64,000 bases of DNA from Desulforamulus ferrireducens (GTDB lineage: Bacteria; Bacillota; Desulfotomaculia; Desulfotomaculales; Desulfotomaculaceae), in contig NZ_CP019698.1 of the NCBI RefSeq assembly GCF_002005145.1, positions 2,294,001 through 2,358,000 on the forward strand. Reading direction: 5' to 3'. A program made the position numbers and the translations under genes. Below are positions 10,942 through 49,246 of this stretch, in pieces (the first letter of the stretch is position 1; the number at the start of each line of letters is the position of its first letter). Under the pieces are notes generated by a model. That model worked only from the letters and a program-made list of their open reading frames with translations. It had not been told where the DNA came from and made no database searches.

Positions 10942-11817
10942 TTACTTGCCTCGCTCGGACATAAGCAGTTCAATTTCCTGCTCGTTAATACCCACCATAG
11001 CTTCGCCCAAATCCTCAGACAGCTCTGCTAATACCTTGGGATCTTGGTAATTGGTAACCGCCTTGACAATAGCCTGAGCTCTTTTTTCCGGATTTCCTGA
11101 CTTAAAAATACCAGAGCCGACAAAAACACCTTCCGCACCCAGCTGCATCATCAGGGCAGCGTCGGCAGGGGTGGCTATACCACCTGCGGCGAAATTGACC
11201 ACCGGCAGACGCTTATGCTTATGTACATAAAGCACCAATTCATAGGGCACCTGCAGTTCCTTAGCCTCTTGGTAAAGCTCATCTTCCCGCAGGCCAGCCA
11301 AGCGGCTAATTTGCCTATTGATCATTCTCATATGGCGTACCGCCTGCACAATATCACCGGTACCCGGTTCCCCCTTGGTGCGAATCATGGCGGCACCTTC
11401 ATTAATTCTACGTAAGGCTTCTCCCAAGTCCCTGGCACCACAGACAAAGGGCACCTTAAATTTGGTTTTGTCTATATGATGAACATCATCGGCAGGAGAA
11501 AGCACTTCGCTCTCATCTATAAAATCTATTTCAATGGCCTCCAGTATCTGAGCCTCCACAAAATGACCAATGCGACACTTGGCCATGACCGGAATGGAAA
11601 CTGCCTCCATAATGCCTTTAATCATTTTTGGGTCACTCATCCGGGAAACGCCACCGGCGGCACGAATATCTGCGGGAATACGTTCCAAAGCCATGACAGC
11701 ACAGGCTCCGGCAGCCTCCGCAATCTTAGCTTGTTCCGGCGTGGTTACATCCATAATCACGCCTCCCTTCAGCATCTGAGCCAGTTCCTTATTTAATTCA
11801 TATCTTTTACTATCCAA
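10942..11817 (-). CDS. pdxS: Pyridoxal 5'-phosphate synthase subunit PdxS
   Basis: The 291-residue TIM-barrel enzyme makes PLP from ribose 5-phosphate, glyceraldehyde 3-phosphate and ammonia supplied by PdxT. The sequence is highly conserved: [13 protein letters not shown], the catalytic lysine region M-A-K-C-R-I-G-H, and [14 protein letters not shown] near the end. It is the first gene of a pdxST operon and diverges from pdxR, which probably regulates it. Confidence 0.96.
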
Positions 11818-38605: not shown

Positions 38606-38977
38606 ATGGAACGGTTAGTGAATCTTTATAAGGCCCTGGGGGATACCCATCGGCTGAACATCCTGCAAATGCTCTCGGGACAGGAACTAAGCGTCTGCGA
38701 AATCATGCAAGGCCTTAGCCTGTCCCAGCCCGCGGTATCGCACCATTTAAAAATTTTGCGCCAGGCGGACTTAATAGAAAGCGTCAAACATGGCAAACTG
38801 GTGCTTTACACCTTAAAGGCCTGTGGCTTGCAACAGATTTACCCATTGGTGGAGCAGCATTTAGGGGAGTTACTGCAGGCCACCACCGCTAATATCAAGC
38901 CCTCGGCCCTGCGAGAGACCCCCAATTATTGTGAGTTGATGGGCCTGAAAAGATCCGTCTGTGAAAAAGATGAATAA
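38606..38977 (+). CDS. arsR: ArsR-family repressor of the acr3 operon
   Basis: The 123-residue protein has A-L-G-D-T-H-R-L-N-I-L-Q-M-L, S-V-C-E-I-M and the recognition helix S-Q-P-A-V-S-H-H-L-K-I-L. One Cys is at the usual helix-3 position, with further Cys residues near the C-terminus (N-Y-C-E-L, S-V-C-E-K). This pattern matches ArsR sensors with an alternative Cys arrangement. It starts an operon with acr3, 15 bases downstream. Confidence 0.88.
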   Translation: MERLVNLYKALGDTHRLNILQMLSGQELSVCEIMQGLSLSQPAVSHHLKILRQADLIESVKHGKLVLYTLKACGLQQIYPLVEQHLGELLQATTANIKPSALRETPNYCELMGLKRSVCEKDE

Positions 38978-38992
38978 GGAGGAATTAAGAAC

Positions 38993-40045
38993 ATGGCAGA
39001 AAAAAGACTGTCTACCCTAGACCGTTTTCTAACCCTGTGGATTTTCCTGGCAATGGCCATTGGGGTAGGTCTGGGTTATGTATTTCCCGGCATTGCCGAT
39101 TGGTTAAACAGTATGTCCATCGGCACCACTTCCATCCCCATTGCCGTGGGCCTCATCGTCATGATGTACCCACCCCTGGCAAAGGTGAAATATGAAGAAA
39201 TGGGCAAAGCCTTTAAAAATGGTAAAGTCATGGGGCTTTCTCTGGTACAAAACTGGATTATCGGCCCCACCCTGATGTTTGTGCTAGCCATTGCCTTCCT
39301 GCGGGATTACCCAGATTATATGATTGGACTTATTCTAATTGGCCTGGCCCGCTGCATCGCAATGGTAATAGTCTGGAACGATCTAGCCAAAGGGGACAAT
39401 GAATACGCCGCCGCTTTGGTGGCGGTTAACTCCATTTTCCAAATGGTCTTTTATTCCATCTATGCCTACTTCTTTATTACCCTGGTACCAGGCTGGCTGG
39501 GTATGGAAGCCATTGAAGTGCATGTCTCGATGGCGGAAGTAGCTAAGAGTGTCCTCATTTACCTGGGCATTCCCTTTGCCGGTGGTATTCTAACCAGGGC
39601 TTTACTGGTACCCCGCAAGGGTAAGGAGTGGTATGAGAAAGAGTTTATTCCCCGTATCAGCCCACTGGCTCTGATTGCCCTGCTATTCACCATCGTGATT
39701 ATGTTCTCCCTGAAGGGCAAGTATATTGTGGAACTGCCGATGGATGTGGTACGGATTTCCATCCCACTCTTAATTTACTTTACCATCATGTTCTTCCTGT
39801 CTTTCTTTATGAGCAAACGCAGCGGCGTCAACTACGACCAAAGCACCACCCTGGCCTTCACCGCTGCCAGCAATAACTTTGAGCTAGCCATTGCGGTGGC
39901 CGTGGCCATCTTCGGCATCGAATCTGGTGCTGCCTTTGCGGCGGTTATTGGCCCCCTGATCGAAGTGCCCGTGATGATTGCCCTGGTCAATGTCGCTTTG
40001 GGCTTTAAGAAGAAATACTTTACTGCCAGTGGTGCGGTGAAATAA
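38993..40045 (+). CDS. acr3: ACR3-family arsenite efflux transporter
   Basis: The 350-residue protein has about ten membrane helices and the ACR3 signature [16 protein letters not shown] with the essential Cys. [14 protein letters not shown] and E-V-P-V-M-I-A-L-V are also diagnostic. It pumps As(III), probably against the proton gradient, and is the main detoxification exit next to ArsM. A strong AAGGAGG precedes the ATG, and a terminator follows. Confidence 0.95.
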
Positions 40046-40259: not shown

Positions 40260-41444
40260 ATGAAGACAATCAATGTCCATTCCAAAGCCAACCTCACAGG
40301 AGGGATCAAAATCAGGCTTGCGGAATACCCCAACCTTTTCCCAGCAGAGCAGGCCGAGGAAGCACTGTTGCTACCCAGTGAAGAAGGCTATCAAATCCTT
40401 CCCCTACGGCGGGATCTTAAAAAGCTCTATATTGAAGTAACCACCCTTTGTAACTTTGCCTGCACCACCTGCATACGCAACTCCTGGCTGGATGAGATGG
40501 GCATGATGGAGTGGGCCACCTTTGAGCGATTGGTGGTACAGATGCGGCAGTTACCGGAGTTGGAGGCTGTTCACTTCGGCGGCTTCGGGGAACCCATGAG
40601 CCACCCTCGGTTTTTTGATATGCTACGGGCGGTAAAGTCCCTGGGGTTACGGGTAGAGATGATTACCAATGGCTCCTTTCTAACTCCAGAAAACATTGCT
40701 AAACTGGTCAGCCTACCATTGGATGCTATCTTTATCTCCCTGGACGGTCCCGATGAAGAAGAATATAATCTCATTCGCCAGACAGACATTGCTCCGGTGG
40801 TGAATAACATCAAAGCCCTCAACGCTGCCAAAGAGGCGGCCAAGAGCAAACTACCGGAGCTAGGAGTAGAGTTTGTGGCCATGAAGAAAAACTTTCATAA
40901 ACTACCGAAACTCATTCGCCTGGCAATGGAATTAAAGGCTAAACAAGTCATTGTCACCAACGTGTTGCCCTATAATGAGGAAATGAAGGACGAAATCCTC
41001 TACGATCTGGACGATACACAGCTTAACCACGGCAAAGATGATATATTGGTGAAGATGCATGCCAAGATGCCCTATATGAAAATGCGCACCGATCGGCAGT
41101 GCAAGTTTGTGGAGGACAAGGCCGCCACCATCACCTACCGAGGCGAAGTGGCCCCCTGTTACGCCCTGATGCACGCCTACCATTGCTACATCTACGGGCG
41201 CAAAAAGGAGATGTACCCCTTCTACTTGGGTAACGTCAACCAAAGCACCCTGGGTGATATCTGGACCGACCCAGCCTATGTCAACTTTCGTAGCAAGCTC
41301 AAGGATTTTAAAATCCCCTCCTGCACCGACTGTAAATATGTGGATGGCTGTTCCTACACCGACACCAACGAGGCAGACTGCTGGGGCAACAACCCCTCTT
41401 GTGCCGATTGCCTGTGGTCCCGGCGGCTTATTGCTTGTCCCTAA
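40260..41444 (+). CDS. Radical SAM/SPASM protein, tungsten cofactor oxidoreductase maturase type
   Basis: The 394-residue enzyme has the 4Fe-4S radical SAM motif C-N-F-A-C-T-T-C (Cys 64, 68, 71) followed by I-R-N-S-W. It has the SAM-binding G-G-F-G-E-P motif and a Cys-rich SPASM C-terminus (C-T-D-C-K-Y-V-D-G-C, C-W-G-N-N-P-S-C-A-D-C-L-W-S). The I-Y-L/Y-I-E-V-T-T-x-C-N start and C-I-R-N-S-W resemble maturases found near tungsten aldehyde oxidoreductases. No such oxidoreductase gene is in the window. It is flanked by arsenic and metal genes. The assignment to the maturase subfamily is moderately sure. Confidence 0.75.
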   Translation: MKTINVHSKANLTGGIKIRLAEYPNLFPAEQAEEALLLPSEEGYQILPLRRDLKKLYIEVTTLCNFACTTCIRNSWLDEMGMMEWATFERLVVQMRQLPELEAVHFGGFGEPMSHPRFFDMLRAVKSLGLRVEMITNGSFLTPENIAKLVSLPLDAIFISLDGPDEEEYNLIRQTDIAPVVNNIKALNAAKEAAKSKLPELGVEFVAMKKNFHKLPKLIRLAMELKAKQVIVTNVLPYNEEMKDEILYDLDDTQLNHGKDDILVKMHAKMPYMKMRTDRQCKFVEDKAATITYRGEVAPCYALMHAYHCYIYGRKKEMYPFYLGNVNQSTLGDIWTDPAYVNFRSKLKDFKIPSCTDCKYVDGCSYTDTNEADCWGNNPSCADCLWSRRLIACP

Positions 41445-41701: not shown

Positions 41702-42133
41702 TTATAGTAATAGCTCGCATAAATAACCGGCCACAATGGCCACAAAAATAATGGTGAGCACAAAGGCCACTACCAGCTTACGGCGGAAAATAGAGGATAA
41801 AATAATCACTTCCGGAATGCTAGCCCCGGCACCCCCGATAATCAGGGCTATAATTGCTCCAATGCTCATCCCTTTATCTAGTAACACCGTACTTATTGGC
41901 AGCATGGTTTCCACCCGGATATACATGGGGATACCCACAATGGCCGCCACTGGGATTGCCAGCGGGTTATCCGAACCTGCCACCTTTGCCACCCAATCCG
42001 CAGGTACAAAACCATAGACAAAAGCACCAATGCCAGCCCCCAGGATGAGGTACGGAAAAGTCTGGCGAAACAAAGACCAGGCCATCTCTCCCGCCCGCTT
42101 GAGCTTCGCATCAAAGGTTTGACTTATTTCCAC
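41702..42133 (-). pseudogene. C-terminal half of an ArsP/DUF318-type permease
   Basis: The 143 residues match the second half of the complete permease at 47578-48534: F-P-Y-L-I-L-G-A-G-I-G-A-F-V-Y-G, G-I-P-M-Y and S-I-P-E-V-I-I-L-S. The first half with its T-P-F-C-S-C-S-S-type motif is missing. Matching sequence continues upstream of the GTG at 42133 (Y-E-G-A-E-E-T-A-A-T), right back to the stop of the CDF gene and in the same frame as it. An ATG overlapping that stop gives only six codons. A deletion has probably removed the N-terminal half. It could still be made as a small four-helix protein. Confidence 0.75.
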
Positions 42134-43339: not shown

Positions 43340-44011
43340 CTAGCCTACCACACCATAAAGCAAGTAAAAACCCAGAACAATTAAAGCCAGTCCGCTTATT
43401 TTTTGTACTACCCGACTAAACCCCTCAAACTTAGCTGCATTTTTCAAGACCGAGGTAAAGGTTCCCGCTGCCAAGAGCGGGATGCTGCGGCCCATTGCGT
43501 AGGCAAAGAGCAGGGTAAAACCGTACCAGACACTGCCTTTAGTTGCTGCATAGGCCAGCACCGTGGCGGTGATGGGAGCGGTACAGGGAGAGGCAATGAT
43601 GGCAAAGGGGATGCCCAACAAAAAGGCCCCCAGCACCCCACTGCCCTGCTTGACCCCGGTGGGGTTGACGCCAAAACCGGGCAGTTTAAAGAGTCCCAGC
43701 AGATTGGCTCCCATCAGCACCGCCACCAGGGCAGCCAAATACCAGACCACTTTGCTCCCCATAAACAGCCCGCCCACGGCGGATACCACCGCTCCAGCGA
43801 TGGCCAGGGTGAGGGATAAGCCCAGCACAAAGGACAGTGAGAGGATAAAGCCCTTTAAACGGGAGCGGTTGTCATAGCCCCCCACATAGGCCACCACCAT
43901 GACGGCGGTGGGTAAGGTGCAGGGGCTAATGCCACTGAACAGTCCTGCTGTTAGGGCTGCCAGCAGGGAAAATAGTAATGAGCCTGCCAAAAGGGTTTCC
44001 AGCGAAGGCAT
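43340..44011 (-). CDS. ccdA: CcdA/DsbD-like transmembrane electron-transfer protein
   Basis: The 223-residue protein has six membrane helices. The paired cysteines are in S-P-C-T-L-P-T near residue 31 and A-S-P-C-T-A-P-I near residue 143, the thiol pair that carries reductant across the membrane in CcdA/DsbD proteins. Its ATG directly follows the stop of the selenoprotein gene, so the two are translated as a unit. It probably supplies electrons to that extracytoplasmic thioredoxin-like partner. Confidence 0.9.
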   Translation of the reverse strand: MPSLETLLAGSLLFSLLAALTAGLFSGISPCTLPTAVMVVAYVGGYDNRSRLKGFILSLSFVLGLSLTLAIAGAVVSAVGGLFMGSKVVWYLAALVAVLMGANLLGLFKLPGFGVNPTGVKQGSGVLGAFLLGIPFAIIASPCTAPITATVLAYAATKGSVWYGFTLLFAYAMGRSIPLLAAGTFTSVLKNAAKFEGFSRVVQKISGLALIVLGFYLLYGVVG

Positions 44012-44611
44012 CTACTTCACCACCTGTTCGATGGTTTTACTGACCTCATCCTGATTGAGTTCTCCCATCCAGGTCTGCACCAACTTTTGCTTACGATCAA
44101 AAAGCACCAGGGCTGGGGCGGTTTGCACCTTCATGTCTGCAGCGGTTTTGTTTAGTTGTTCCCCTTCGGACTCCTGGTAAACTGCGATATCAATCCAAGT
44201 AAAGGTTAGTTGCTCGCCATATTTCTTTTCCATTTGCTGCACCACCGACCGGTGGTTGGAAAAAAACTCCTTCGTGGTGGGTCAGCAATCGGCATTGTAG
44301 GTATAGACCACCGCCACGGGTTTGCCTTTGGCAAAGCTATCTTCTAAAAGTTTAGCCAGTTTAGGCGCCTTTGCGTTAACAGCAGCCGCTTGCTGTTGAT
44401 CTGCTTGGTTCTGGCCAGCAGCTTTTGCACTGGCCTTTGCTTGGCTTGGCTCACTATTACTCATGTCTGTTTGACTGGCTTCGGTCTGAGTGGTAACCAC
44501 CTGGGGTGTTTCTGCTTTCTCTCTTCCCCCAGACCAAAGGGGTTTGGTCCCTACCGCCACGAAGGCCAACAAAATTACACCGAGCAGTACTAACTTGCCA
44601 CGTTTCTTCAT
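44012..44611 (-). CDS. Membrane-anchored thioredoxin-like selenoprotein with Cys-Sec active site (UGA at 44284-44282)
   Basis: One continuous frame of 199 codons is interrupted only by a TGA at codon 110, directly after Cys 109 in Y-T-Y-N-A-D-C. Downstream the frame continues P-T-T-K-E-F-F and then a normal thioredoxin-like second half, with the cis-proline loop V-Q-T-A-P-A-L-V-L-F. Residues 7-25 form a membrane anchor. An Ala/Gln-rich linker follows, so the domain faces outward. A hairpin with a GGTC loop lies 25 bases after the TGA, like a bacterial SECIS. The stop abuts ccdA. A simple nonsense mutation is the alternative, but frame continuity and hairpin argue for selenocysteine. Confidence 0.78.
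44241..44256 (-). promoter_or_regulatory. Candidate bacterial SECIS hairpin
   Basis: On the minus strand ACCACC-GGTC-GGTGGT forms a perfect 6-bp stem with a four-base loop. It begins 26 bases after the UGA at 44284-44282. The loop matches the central GGUC of the well-known E. coli fdhF element, and the distance is in the usual range for SelB-dependent insertion. An outer CACCAC/GTGGTG pairing is an alternative fold. Confidence 0.65.
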
Positions 44612-44673: not shown

Positions 44674-44721
44674 ACCAATATTCCCAATAAACAAGTAAAC
44701 TGTAAAAGTTTTACATATAAT

Positions 44722-46900
44722 AGAGTAGGGAAACCAGTTTCCTGGCTTCCCCCTCATCAAACCGTACGTGCCCTACTAAGGCATACGGCTTACCAAGTGT
44801 GATTTGACATTGTCAGGTATATTTCGCCATTCTTTGAGCGTACCGCATTTTACGAATCAGGTCCGGAGTATAATACTCCCGGCCTTTTTCTTTTGCCCTC
44901 TGTATTCTGCGTTCCAGTTTTGTCTTGGCCTTTTTCGTTATACGCTGGATGTATTGTTCTAAGGTGTAGCCAAATTGCTTGCTGTAGTAGAGCCACATAG
45001 AGGGAATTAGTCCTATGCGAGCGAAGAACTCGTTATTCCATTTGGTTTTCATGATGTGCCCTTTTCTTTGTGTCGGATGGTTATGGATCATTGCCACCCT
45101 TAATCGTTGTCGGGTGTAAGCATCAATGGCTTCCAATTCTTTGCCGAAGGAATTATGAAAACAGCGGCTCTTTTGCCCGTACTTCTCATTCTCTTTAATC
45201 GCCTGATAGACAGTAAGAAAGAAATTGATTTTGCCCCGTATTACCGGGTTCACCTGCTCCAGCCATTTCTCTTTGTTTAATGTCAGGGTTTTTCTTGTCT
45301 TGGCTTTTATCTTAGCTTTAAAATCTTTAAGATTGGCATCGGTAGGCCTTACAATGAAATACGCCTGACCATCCTTTTTGCGCTCTCTCCAATGTTTAAA
45401 GCTAAATCCAACGAAATTAAAGTCATCCTTGTCAAAGTCCACGAATCGTGTCTTTTCTATGGAGACTTCTAATCCTAACTCATCTAGGGTTGTTTTGGCT
45501 ACTTCAGCTGCTCTCTCAATATCTTCTTTACTTTTGGCGAACAAGAGAAAATCATCAGCATACCTGACAAACCGTACCCCATGTTCTTCCAGCGTCCAGT
45601 CCAATTCGTTGAGATACAGATTTGCCAGCAAAGGACTGATGACGCCGCCCTGAGGAGTGCCGGAATCTGTAGGATGGAATTTGCCTTCTTCCATGTATCC
45701 GGCTTTGAGCCAAGCCCATATCATGTCTAGTACTGTTCCGTCTGCGATATATTTGGTAAGCACTTTCATCAGCTTTTTGTGCGGGATATTATCAAAGAAG
45801 CCCTTGATGTCACAGTCGTAAATATGATTGTATCCCGTTTCGATGTTCCACAAAATTATCTGCATCACTCGTTTGATACCCAGGTTAGGCCGGTAGCCAC
45901 AAGACCACTTGTGGAATATGTGCTCTTCGCATTTGGGGCTGAGTACATTGACGATGGCTTGCTGTACAATTCTATCCTCAATGTTGGGTATACCCAGCGG
46001 GCGCAGTTTGCCGTTCTTCTTGGGTATGTATTGTCGGCGCACTGCTGTCGGTTTGTATGTCTTGGTTCTGAGCCTCTGTAATAAGTCTTCTATTTTCTCT
46101 TCCTCGTGTTTCTTGAAGCTTTTGATGGTTTCACCGTCTATACCCCCGGCTCCACCGTTTTCCTCAACCTTCCGCCATGCTGCCATAAGTTTCCGGTCGA
46201 ATAGGATTTGTCCGTAAATGCTATGCCACTTGAGTTTGAGTTCCTTGTTCAACGTCTTATTCCTTACCTTTCTCGTGTCCATCCGGTTCGTTTCTACCGC
46301 AGTAACGTCCCCGTTTTCATTACACGTGAGTCCAGTTGGAGCCACACAGGTCGGCACCCCTTCCGTTCAGTTGCAGTTTGGTCTGCAGCTTACTTCCGTA
46401 CTTTGAGGCCGTCTGACTTCTCCATCCGTGGCAGCAACTTCAGCATAGCCTTATATGCTACCACCCTTTGCAGGCTTGGATGGAGATCTCACAGGGTCAT
46501 CTCACCTTCCCTCTTGGCATACCGAACACCATCACTTGACAAGCTACCTCCTACCCGGCTGGCTCATTTGAATAGGTGTCATCTTTTCCGGTGGGCTTCC
46601 CGTTTTCTTCGCACAGTCGCCAACTTGCCCAGCCGCTGTGTTTCACGCTCTCGCATTTCGGTCTGCCAAGCCGCTTGTGGGCCTCTCGGCTTCCACGTCT
46701 CCTTCAGACAGCACCTCACGATGCTGCCCTAGACTAAGCTTCCTGGTTCGCGCCAGCACTCCCAGGGGAGGACTTTCACCTCCGAGAACCCCCATGCTTC
46801 CAGACTCCCGGCCCGTTTTACTGCCGTATCGTGGCCGCTGTCTTTATAACATGAGTTTGTCCCGAACTATTAACGGGACAGGTGCGACTGCCTGTCGCAA
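44722..46900 (-). mobile_element. Group II intron with complete maturase gene
   Basis: The minus strand carries a maturase gene preceded by intron-type segments such as GGAGGTGAAAGTCCTCC (about 46770-46790). After it comes a domain V hairpin (GCCGTATGCC and GGCACGTACGGT, about 44762-44800). The 3' end is near 44722 after CCCTACTCTAT. The 5' end appears to be at TTGCGACAGGCAG near 46900, directly touching the 3' end of the next intron. End positions are approximate. Confidence 0.75.
44813..46282 (-). CDS. ltrA: Group II intron reverse transcriptase/maturase
   Basis: The 489-residue protein has all parts of an intron-encoded protein. RT motifs are G-G-A-G-G-I-D-G-E-T, K-L-R-P-L-G-I-P-N, C-D-I-K-G-F-F-D-N-I, G-T-P-Q-G-G-V-I-S-P-L-L-A-N and the catalytic R-Y-A-D-D. 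The thumb/X domain with G-K-I-N-F-F-L follows. The C-terminal extension is basic but shows no clear HNH motif. I prefer the ATG at 46282. The frame also opens from a GTG at 46357. It differs clearly from the split maturase at 30-34 kb, so the two introns belong to different lineages. Confidence 0.9.
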   Translation of the reverse strand: MDTRKVRNKTLNKELKLKWHSIYGQILFDRKLMAAWRKVEENGGAGGIDGETIKSFKKHEEEKIEDLLQRLRTKTYKPTAVRRQYIPKKNGKLRPLGIPNIEDRIVQQAIVNVLSPKCEEHIFHKWSCGYRPNLGIKRVMQIILWNIETGYNHIYDCDIKGFFDNIPHKKLMKVLTKYIADGTVLDMIWAWLKAGYMEEGKFHPTDSGTPQGGVISPLLANLYLNELDWTLEEHGVRFVRYADDFLLFAKSKEDIERAAEVAKTTLDELGLEVSIEKTRFVDFDKDDFNFVGFSFKHWRERKKDGQAYFIVRPTDANLKDFKAKIKAKTRKTLTLNKEKWLEQVNPVIRGKINFFLTVYQAIKENEKYGQKSRCFHNSFGKELEAIDAYTRQRLRVAMIHNHPTQRKGHIMKTKWNNEFFARIGLIPSMWLYYSKQFGYTLEQYIQRITKKAKTKLERRIQRAKEKGREYYTPDLIRKMRYAQRMAKYT

Positions 46901-47540
46901 TTGGGATAGGGGGCGGAGATAATCTCCGCCGACCCTCCCACACCACCGGACATGCGGGTCCGCATCCGGCGGTTGGCCAGGGTTAACTGATTACTCAGCG
47001 ATTAAGATTTTCGGGTATTGTGCCGGAGAATTCTCAGCCCTTCTATAAGCCATTGTGGCTTCACCACTCCCTCTTATAGATAGGTCTCTGTTTCAGAGAC
47101 AACTGCTATCAGCAAATTCTCTCGAACGCACCGTTCTTAGTCTGCCCTGACCTTCGGCCCTTCCTCGTTAGGAGTACTATGGCCTCTGCTGACTTCTGCC
47201 GACTCAGCCGACACCTCACGATGCGGGTTGGTATTGTTAAGGACTTCCTTACCATTACCGGATCGACAGACCTCCCCGGATAAGAGCGATAACTTTCATC
47301 CCATGTACCTGCCACATTTACTGCTATATCCCTTGGCAACATAGGGCTTTGACTTGTCTGGCAGTCTTGCCCGAATATAACAGCCTCGAATGTGATTCGT
47401 GTACCTCAGGTCGGGAATTTGCCTCCAGCTTCTTTCAGATTCCACCTCACGATGGACACCCTTGCTCTTGGCTAACAGTTGGTGTTGCCAACCCCTGTTC
47501 GGGACTTTCACCCTAAAGCTATCGCCCATGCCGGGCATAC
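46900..47540 (-). mobile_element. ORF-less group II intron (class C-like remnant)
   Basis: The minus strand from 47540 begins GTATGCCCGGCATGGGCG, one short of the GTGCG consensus at two bases. It continues with GGGTGAAAGTCCCGAA and further segments closely matching the 5' part of the 35.2 kb intron. Then it passes directly to a domain V (CCGGATGCGG / CCGCATGTCCGG) and ends CCCTATCCCAAT at 46900. No maturase gene is present. At 640 bases it is a ribozyme-only copy. It inserted right after the terminator of the permease gene, the usual class C target. Confidence 0.75.
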
Positions 47541-47577: not shown

Positions 47578-48534
47578 CTATACCAGGAAATTAAACAGAT
47601 AACCAATGATAATGATTCCAATGCTGGTGACCACCACAAAGCTAGCAATTAAGCGGGGTTTGATGACCTTACGCAGAATAATCATTTCCGGCAAAGACAA
47701 GGCGGTGGTGGCCATCATAAAGGCCATTGCGGTACCAAAGCCCACACCCTTATTAATCAGAGCTTCTGCAATGGGAATGGTCCCCAGAGCGTTGGAGTAC
47801 AGTGGTACTCCCAGAACAACCGCCACAATGACTGCAAAGGGATTTTGTGGCCCGGCATATTTAGCCAGCAGTTCCGCCGGTGCATAACCGTGGATAAAGG
47901 CCCCGATGCCCACACCAATGAGGATATACACCCAAACCCTTTTCACGATATCCACCACTTGCCCCTTAGCAAAGGCAATGCGGTCCTGGGTAGTTAGTTG
48001 CTGTATTTCGGTTTCACCCATTTTAATTTGCTTCACATATTCCTCAATTTGATCTTCCATTTTCATCTTACCAATGACCAGACCACCCAACACACCTAGA
48101 ATGGTACCAGCCACCACATAGATCGTAGCAATTTTGACCCCAAAGCTACCAATCAAAATGGCAAAGGCTGCCTCATTGACGATGGGTGAAGTGATCAAAA
48201 AGGAGAAGGTTACACCCAGTGGAATACCCGCTTCCACAAAGCCAATGAACAAGGGTACCGAGGAACAGGAGCAGAAGGGTGTTACAGAGCCCAGTAAGGA
48301 GGCCATGATGTTGCCGGTTACTCCACTAAACCGAGTGAGAATGCGCTTGGTCCGTTCCGGTGGGAAGTAGCTGCGAATATAGGAGATGGCAAAAATCATA
48401 ACTCCCAGCAAGATAATGATTTTAATGGTGTCGTAAAAGAAGAAGTGCACACTGGCCCCGGTGCGAGATTGCATGGATAGGCCAAAAACATTGGTTACCA
48501 AGAGCTGCATTAAATGATCCAACCAATCAAACAT
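47578..48534 (-). CDS. ArsP/DUF318-type permease
   Basis: The 318-residue protein has eight or so membrane helices in two repeats. It has the motif T-P-F-C-S-C-S-S-V-P-L-F in the first half and G-V-P-L-Y-S-N plus L-S-L-P-E-M-I-I-L in the second. Related permeases export methylarsenicals (ArsP) or act with thioredoxin-like partners, and the C-S-C motif is a likely thiol site. Its own AT-rich operator candidate and terminator show a single-gene unit. The substrate assignment to organoarsenicals is plausible given arsM in the same island but not proven. Confidence 0.85.
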   Translation of the reverse strand: MFDWLDHLMQLLVTNVFGLSMQSRTGASVHFFFYDTIKIIILLGVMIFAISYIRSYFPPERTKRILTRFSGVTGNIMASLLGSVTPFCSCSSVPLFIGFVEAGIPLGVTFSFLITSPIVNEAAFAILIGSFGVKIATIYVVAGTILGVLGGLVIGKMKMEDQIEEYVKQIKMGETEIQQLTTQDRIAFAKGQVVDIVKRVWVYILIGVGIGAFIHGYAPAELLAKYAGPQNPFAVIVAVVLGVPLYSNALGTIPIAEALINKGVGFGTAMAFMMATTALSLPEMIILRKVIKPRLIASFVVVTSIGIIIIGYLFNFLV

Positions 48535-48722: not shown

Positions 48723-48983
48723 TCAGCCACAGCCACCGGCGGAACCTCTGTTTAGCAAAGACTGCGCGTTTTGTAAAAGCATATCCGCCAGGGCCTTGAT
48801 CCCCTGGTTAGGTTGTATTTTCGCTTCTTCCCCCAGTTGCACTGCTTGGGCAATTTCCTCCACCGAAGCTCCAGCCTTTAAGGCATCGGTTACCTTTTGC
48901 TCCAGGCAAGGAAAGCAATTGGCCCCTACACTGGCCCCCACACCGATGAGGGCAAGGGTTTTGACATCTAAATTGGCACCCAC
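48723..48983 (-). CDS. Small CMD/AhpD-like protein with CxxC motif
   Basis: The 86-residue protein has the helical carboxymuconolactone-decarboxylase/AhpD pattern: A-L-I-G-V-G-A-S-V-G-A-N-C-F-P-C-L-E near residue 20 and L-K-A-G-A-S-V-E-E-I-A-Q-A-V. The C-F-P-C pair suits a peroxidase-type redox centre. A Cys near the C-terminus lies in G-S-A-G-G-C-G. It follows the mini-thioredoxin by 23 bases, so they probably work as a redox pair next to the permease. Confidence 0.8.
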   Translation of the reverse strand: MGANLDVKTLALIGVGASVGANCFPCLEQKVTDALKAGASVEEIAQAVQLGEEAKIQPNQGIKALADMLLQNAQSLLNRGSAGGCG

Positions 48984-49006: not shown

Positions 49007-49246
49007 CTACTTTTCTTCCTCAATCAGCTTTTTGATATCCGCCTTGTTGGGCACCCGACCAGATACCTTGACTTTCCCGTTAATCACCAGCCCTGGTGTA
49101 AGCATGACACCATACTGCACGATCTGGGCAATGTCCTCCACCTTTTCCACATTGGCGGGTACGTTGATTTCAGCCAAGACCTCACGCACCAGTTTTTCCA
49201 CTTCGGTGCATTTTTTACAACCAGTTCCCAATACTTTAATTTCCAT
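49007..49246 (-). CDS. Mini-thioredoxin/glutaredoxin-like protein (TM0996/MTH895 type)
   Basis: The 79-residue protein begins M-E-I-K-V-L-G-T-G-C-K-K-C, with the redox motif C-K-K-C, and has the cis-proline loop V-M-L-T-P-G-L-V-I-N-G-K. Such small thioredoxins often accompany DUF318 permeases and arsenic genes and may reduce the permease or arsenicals. A strong GGAGGGG lies before the ATG, and an AT-rich operator candidate is upstream. Confidence 0.9.
   Translation of the reverse strand: MEIKVLGTGCKKCTEVEKLVREVLAEINVPANVEKVEDIAQIVQYGVMLTPGLVINGKVKVSGRVPNKADIKKLIEEEK

Follow-up and report, generated by a model that had tools for sequence, protein, structure and literature searches.

The window analysed here is a stretch of 64,000 nucleotides from Desulforamulus ferrireducens (contig NZ_CP019698.1). 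On its minus strand it encodes a thioredoxin-like protein with a UGA codon in its frame, adjoined by a ccdA gene and set among genes of ars type:

38606-38977, plus strand: ArsR-family regulator (context)
38993-40045, plus strand: ACR3 arsenite efflux pump (context)
43340..44011, minus strand: CcdA, of the DsbD transmembrane family; its start codon adjoins the stop of the thioredoxin gene, and its two SPC cysteines do not vary across 14 loci
44012..44611, minus strand: predicted selenoprotein gene for a membrane-anchored thioredoxin fold with a DCUPTT motif (199 aa; ATG at 44611, TAG at 44014..44012)
44241..44256, minus strand: bacterial-SECIS-like hairpin ACCACC-GGUC-GGUGGU; the loop and the five inner base pairs are the same in each of the six distinct UGA genes
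44282..44284, minus strand: internal UGA, codon 110, predicted to be read as selenocysteine (Sec); aligns with a Cys of the CC (Cys-Cys) homologues
44720..47456, minus strand: group II intron sequence with reverse transcriptase ORF, between arsP and the thioredoxin gene (context, outside the system)
47578..48534, minus strand: ArsP-type permease; in genome G006 its relative immediately precedes the thioredoxin gene
48723..48983, minus strand: small CMD/AhpD-like protein with a CxxC motif, between the ArsE-type gene and arsP
49007..49246, minus strand: small thioredoxin of the TIGR00412 family (MTH895/ArsE, redox-active disulfide protein 2), possible cytosolic electron donor

When its TGA is read as a residue, the thioredoxin gene forms one frame of 199 amino acids, in which the sole internal TGA lies directly 3' of the Cys109 codon; the plus-strand frame at 44012-44611 is closed, and the gene is that of the minus strand, with an (A)AGGAGG Shine-Dalgarno site upstream of its ATG. 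An earlier note on this DNA had described a 199-codon frame with one UGA directly after the active-site Cys and a thioredoxin second half in the same frame, and had expected ordinary annotation to split the gene in two. All of this is borne out: the UGA is codon 110, homologues keep the frame beyond it, and a mechanical ORF finder cuts the gene into ORFs of 109 and 77 amino acids. The ratio dN/dS downstream of the UGA is 0.11-0.23 (0.12, 0.12 and 0.22 for the window gene against its counterparts in genomes G001, G006 and G051), and on these ratios the codons 3' of the UGA are evidently under purifying selection. A readthrough scan of the window gave no further convincing UGA gene, and the thioredoxin gene has no plasmid match, by DNA or by protein.

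The C-terminal domain, modelled by AlphaFold2 with a pLDDT of about 85-97, is confidently predicted to adopt a thioredoxin fold. A structure search returned only ordinary thioredoxins (best Z 13.5, rmsd 1.8 over 99 residues), matches that are uninformative on function, and the protein matches no NCBIfam model. Profile alignment to E. coli Trx places C32 at Cys109, G33 at Sec110 and C35 at Thr112, so the CxxC active site of a classical thioredoxin is lacking; because Thr112 occupies the Cys35 position and Sec that of Gly33, the active site would be a vicinal Cys-Sec pair. Both positions of the active site are invariant, and among the other invariant residues are Thr113, His120, Trp139, Asp141 and, at the cis-Pro position, Pro166. 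The window protein has a basic, hydrophobic N-terminal anchor, in place of which several CC homologues carry a lipobox-like sequence (LSAC-S type); this suggests an extracytoplasmic site for the protein. Both elements of the membrane-anchored thioredoxin proposed in the earlier note, the fold and a membrane or lipoprotein anchor, thus hold.

Homologues of the thioredoxin gene occur in 17 of 113 genomes of the class, most genomes being without it. Six further copies of the gene, spread over four other genomes, retain the UGA: two each in G001 and G002 and one each in G006 (which we take to be Desulfotomaculum reducens MI-1) and G051. The full-length copies are 53-87% identical to the window gene. 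In eleven more distant homologues, ten from the class and one from outside it (G481), an alignment of the kind the earlier note had proposed places Cys at the UGA position, within a DCC, NCC or GCC motif; homologues thus carry Cys or a UGA there and conserve the downstream frame. The UGA (CU, Cys-Sec) forms constitute one clade nested within the CC forms and sister to the CC form of G024, a tree that fits a single Cys-to-Sec change, although the support of 90/92 is not overwhelming. Some individual copies are irregular. Contig C49 of G001 carries two inverted CU copies encoding an identical protein, at 11791 and 97385 (L021, L024). The second CU copy of G002 (L025, L057) is decayed, having lost its N-terminus and kept the UGA and hairpin, and in the CC homologue of G024 (L058, L028) a TAA interrupts the frame within the linker that follows the anchor, reflecting either decay or a sequencing error. 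A different thioredoxin-like gene, L039 in G050, has a UGA in a UxxC motif (PGURSC) and is probably another selenoprotein.

The earlier note had proposed a search for selA, selB, selC and selD, making its reading depend on the presence of SelB and tRNA-Sec. The 3.24 Mb genome, assembled as one contig, encodes SelB (378 bits), an adjoining SelA (624 bits), SelD (403 bits), whose own frame carries a UGA, and a tRNA-Sec with a UCA anticodon. It also has another UGA-containing gene, which is DsbA-like. Among the genomes tested, SelB is found in 23 of 23 and tRNA-Sec in all but one, which makes the machinery useless for discriminating genomes with CU forms from those with CC forms.

The hairpin downstream of the UGA was likewise found as the earlier note had described it, with a 6-bp stem (44256..44241) and a GGTC loop, at the usual bacterial SECIS distance: the stem begins at base 26 after the UGA and the loop lies 31 nt after it. 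A bacterial SECIS model calls for a G in the first two loop positions, a loop 16-37 nt after the UGA and an MFE of -7.5 kcal/mol or lower (PMC13188914), and the window hairpin, scored against this model as the earlier note had suggested, has all three properties. Such loose published rules are also satisfied by 40 of 300 synonymous recodings (13%) and, taken alone, are too permissive, giving weak evidence for the hairpin; the strict form, a 6-bp stem with a GG/GU tetraloop at the proper spacing, appears in 188 of 20,000 recodings (0.9%). The 15 bases CCACCGGTCGGTGGT are common to all six distinct UGA genes, among which the decayed L025 is counted, and are missing from the CC genes; the single variable base of the region lies just outside the stem. 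At the codon level, CAC CGG TCG GTG are identical in the same six genes, and invariant codons make up 4 of 5 conserved codons in the hairpin (the fifth, variable one being counted) versus 11 of 47 elsewhere, a difference whose significance is modest (Fisher p=0.02) and which comes from related sequences. A search of the 113 genomes for the UGA-plus-hairpin pattern found seven places, all of them in this thioredoxin gene, and the reversed-pattern control found none. Being nearly invariant among the aligned UGA genes, the hairpin shows no covariation, and the case for the structure therefore rests on its conservation and uniqueness.

Two readings would dispense with selenocysteine. The UGA breaks the frame and might represent a nonsense mutation or sequencing error in a decaying pseudogene, a fate with parallels in the clearly decayed L025 and in the TAA-bearing CC gene of G024. 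This is extremely unlikely, given that six further copies, from four other genomes, share the UGA, that selection continues past it, that the conserved hairpin is found only where the UGA is present, and that the genome has the full Sec machinery. Alternatively, the 109-aa and 77-aa ORFs of the mechanical ORF finder might be two proteins, with translation stopping at the UGA and restarting at GTG 44245. Such a restart would divide a single thioredoxin fold, its GTG lies inside the hairpin, and the CC homologues are single and uninterrupted, all of which makes this account very improbable. Of the two observations that would have refuted the earlier note's reading, neither was made, and the sequence evidence indicates that the gene almost certainly encodes a selenoprotein.

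The ATG of ccdA, at 44011, follows immediately on the thioredoxin TAG, and its product has a DsbD_TM domain (82 bits versus a cut-off of 27) with the two conserved cysteines. In each of 14 loci compared, the thioredoxin and ccdA genes abut, overlap or lie a few bases apart, in keeping with the coupling to ccdA that had been claimed from the window sequence. The arsenic setting, also proposed at that stage, holds beyond the window: of 16 related loci, about 13 have genes for ArsR, Acr3, ArsP, an ArsE-type thioredoxin, ArsM, ArsD or ArsA in the vicinity, a count made by hand from ORF lists and partly via BLAST to the window's genes, and three show no ars gene in the stretch read. The gene order is arsD-arsA-arsA-acr3-arsR-trx-ccdA in G481, arsR-trx-ccdA-arsE in G044 and G048, and arsE-trx-ccdA in G051. 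Within the window, the group II intron region at 44720-47456 contains two domain 5/6 matches, D1-D4 matches and the reverse transcriptase ORF, and is possibly two introns or a nested pair. At 41702-42133 (minus strand), beside a CDF transporter, lies the C-terminal half only of an ArsP-type permease, which looks truncated because its relative in G001 (L053, 6546-7478) reaches the full length of 310 aa; at 40260-41444 (plus strand), inside the arsenic island, a radical SAM protein scores above the cut-off of TIGR04317 (tungsten-cofactor oxidoreductase maturase).

Several known systems share parts of this arrangement. CcdA, thioredoxin and redox-active disulfide protein 2 (ArsE-type) were reported together in ars operons in 2010 (PMC2963123), the same three kinds of protein in arsenic loci as here, so this set is already known and is not itself new. 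In the portion of that paper considered here, the authors connect the set to cytosolic ArsC, and selenocysteine is unmentioned; its thioredoxin has CxxC, whereas the present one is membrane-anchored with a vicinal CC or CU. The ArsEFG system of roxarsone/nitarsone resistance likewise combines an ArsE-type thioredoxin (TIGR00412) and a DsbD-like membrane protein with a third protein, and the G051 order of ArsE-type protein, thioredoxin and CcdA resembles it. We rejected the thioredoxin as ArsF, the ArsF model NF040494 matching only weakly and elsewhere in the genome (E 0.245), and with the ArsG model NF040495, whose cut-off is 200 bits, CcdA reaches 46 bits. SAO (SaoT, SaoE and others) and Tso systems are selenoproteins with thioredoxin-like or DsbD-like parts in metal(loid) settings; every match of the window neighbours lies far short of the curated cut-offs (SaoT 20.7 versus 65, SaoE 117 versus 325).

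Among known selenoproteins, a thiol:disulfide interchange protein (PF13098; PMC13188914) belongs to the same broad Pfam group of thioredoxin-like folds and likewise has Sec in its active site, but as UxxC, in contrast to the adjacent Cys-Sec found here, which lacks a resolving Cys in the customary position. A DsbA-like selenoprotein of the closely related D. reducens (PMC1794560) also belongs to the thioredoxin superfamily; it is a different gene, the PF01323 match with a UGA lying at 2876621 in G006 and the thioredoxin gene at 594534. The 2006 list of eight D. reducens selenoproteins does not name the CU thioredoxin (PMC1794560), and a CcdA-linked CU thioredoxin is not among the 119 prokaryotic selenoprotein families of the 2026 catalogue (PMC13188914), from which the family appears to be missing and to which it would be new.

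We propose that SelB and tRNA-Sec, guided by the downstream hairpin, decode the UGA as selenocysteine, giving an N-terminally membrane-anchored, extracytoplasmic thioredoxin fold with Cys109-Sec110 at the start of its active-site helix. CcdA would move electrons across the membrane and re-reduce the Cys-Sec pair, a relay that is very likely, with electron flow and its direction inferred. The electrons would most likely reach CcdA from a cytosolic thioredoxin; gene neighbourhood suggests that this is perhaps the ArsE-type protein at 49007-49246. For the joint claim of a selenoprotein thioredoxin fed by CcdA, leaving its substrate aside, we estimate a probability of about 0.85. The reduced pair may then act on or bind arsenic compounds outside the membrane, or keep a partner such as ArsP reduced. 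A role of some kind in handling arsenic or organoarsenic compounds is likely; any particular substrate, and with it the selenium-dependent redox step in metal or methylarsenical handling that the earlier note suggested, is speculative and at best doubtful.

In ArsD a vicinal Cys pair binds As(III), and in MerA one binds Hg(II). A true selenoprotein might similarly use Cys-Sec as an As(III)/methyl-As(III) binding site and not for catalysis, with CcdA only keeping the pair reduced; the ars setting and the vicinal CC/CU without a resolving Cys at Trx position 35 are consistent with this. Since a thioredoxin fold with a conserved cis-Pro, P166, and constant pairing with CcdA point to electron transfer, we consider pure metalloid binding possible though unlikely. 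CcdA-thioredoxin pairs elsewhere serve cytochrome c maturation, and the protein could be a general extracytoplasmic thiol reductant (for example, in cytochrome c maturation or disulfide repair) that lies among ars genes by chance of place, as the three loci showing no ars gene might imply. This is the less probable of the two: ars neighbours recur, including the G481 run from arsD to ccdA, and a gene confined to 17 of 113 genomes of the class is unlike one with a housekeeping function.

Read as a CcdA-fed selenoprotein thioredoxin, the gene offers a vicinal Cys-Sec pair, unusual chemistry for the active site of a thioredoxin, together with a switch from Cys to Sec that can be compared with surviving CC relatives. 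Tentatively, it may represent an uncatalogued selenoprotein family, an extracytoplasmic vicinal Cys-Sec thioredoxin that receives electrons from CcdA and either reduces arsenicals or captures them on the outer side of the membrane. Through the connection with CcdA and ars genes, the part that selenium may play in arsenic handling is directly testable, and, if arsenicals are indeed reduced or captured in this way, selenium would be used directly in arsenic detoxification.
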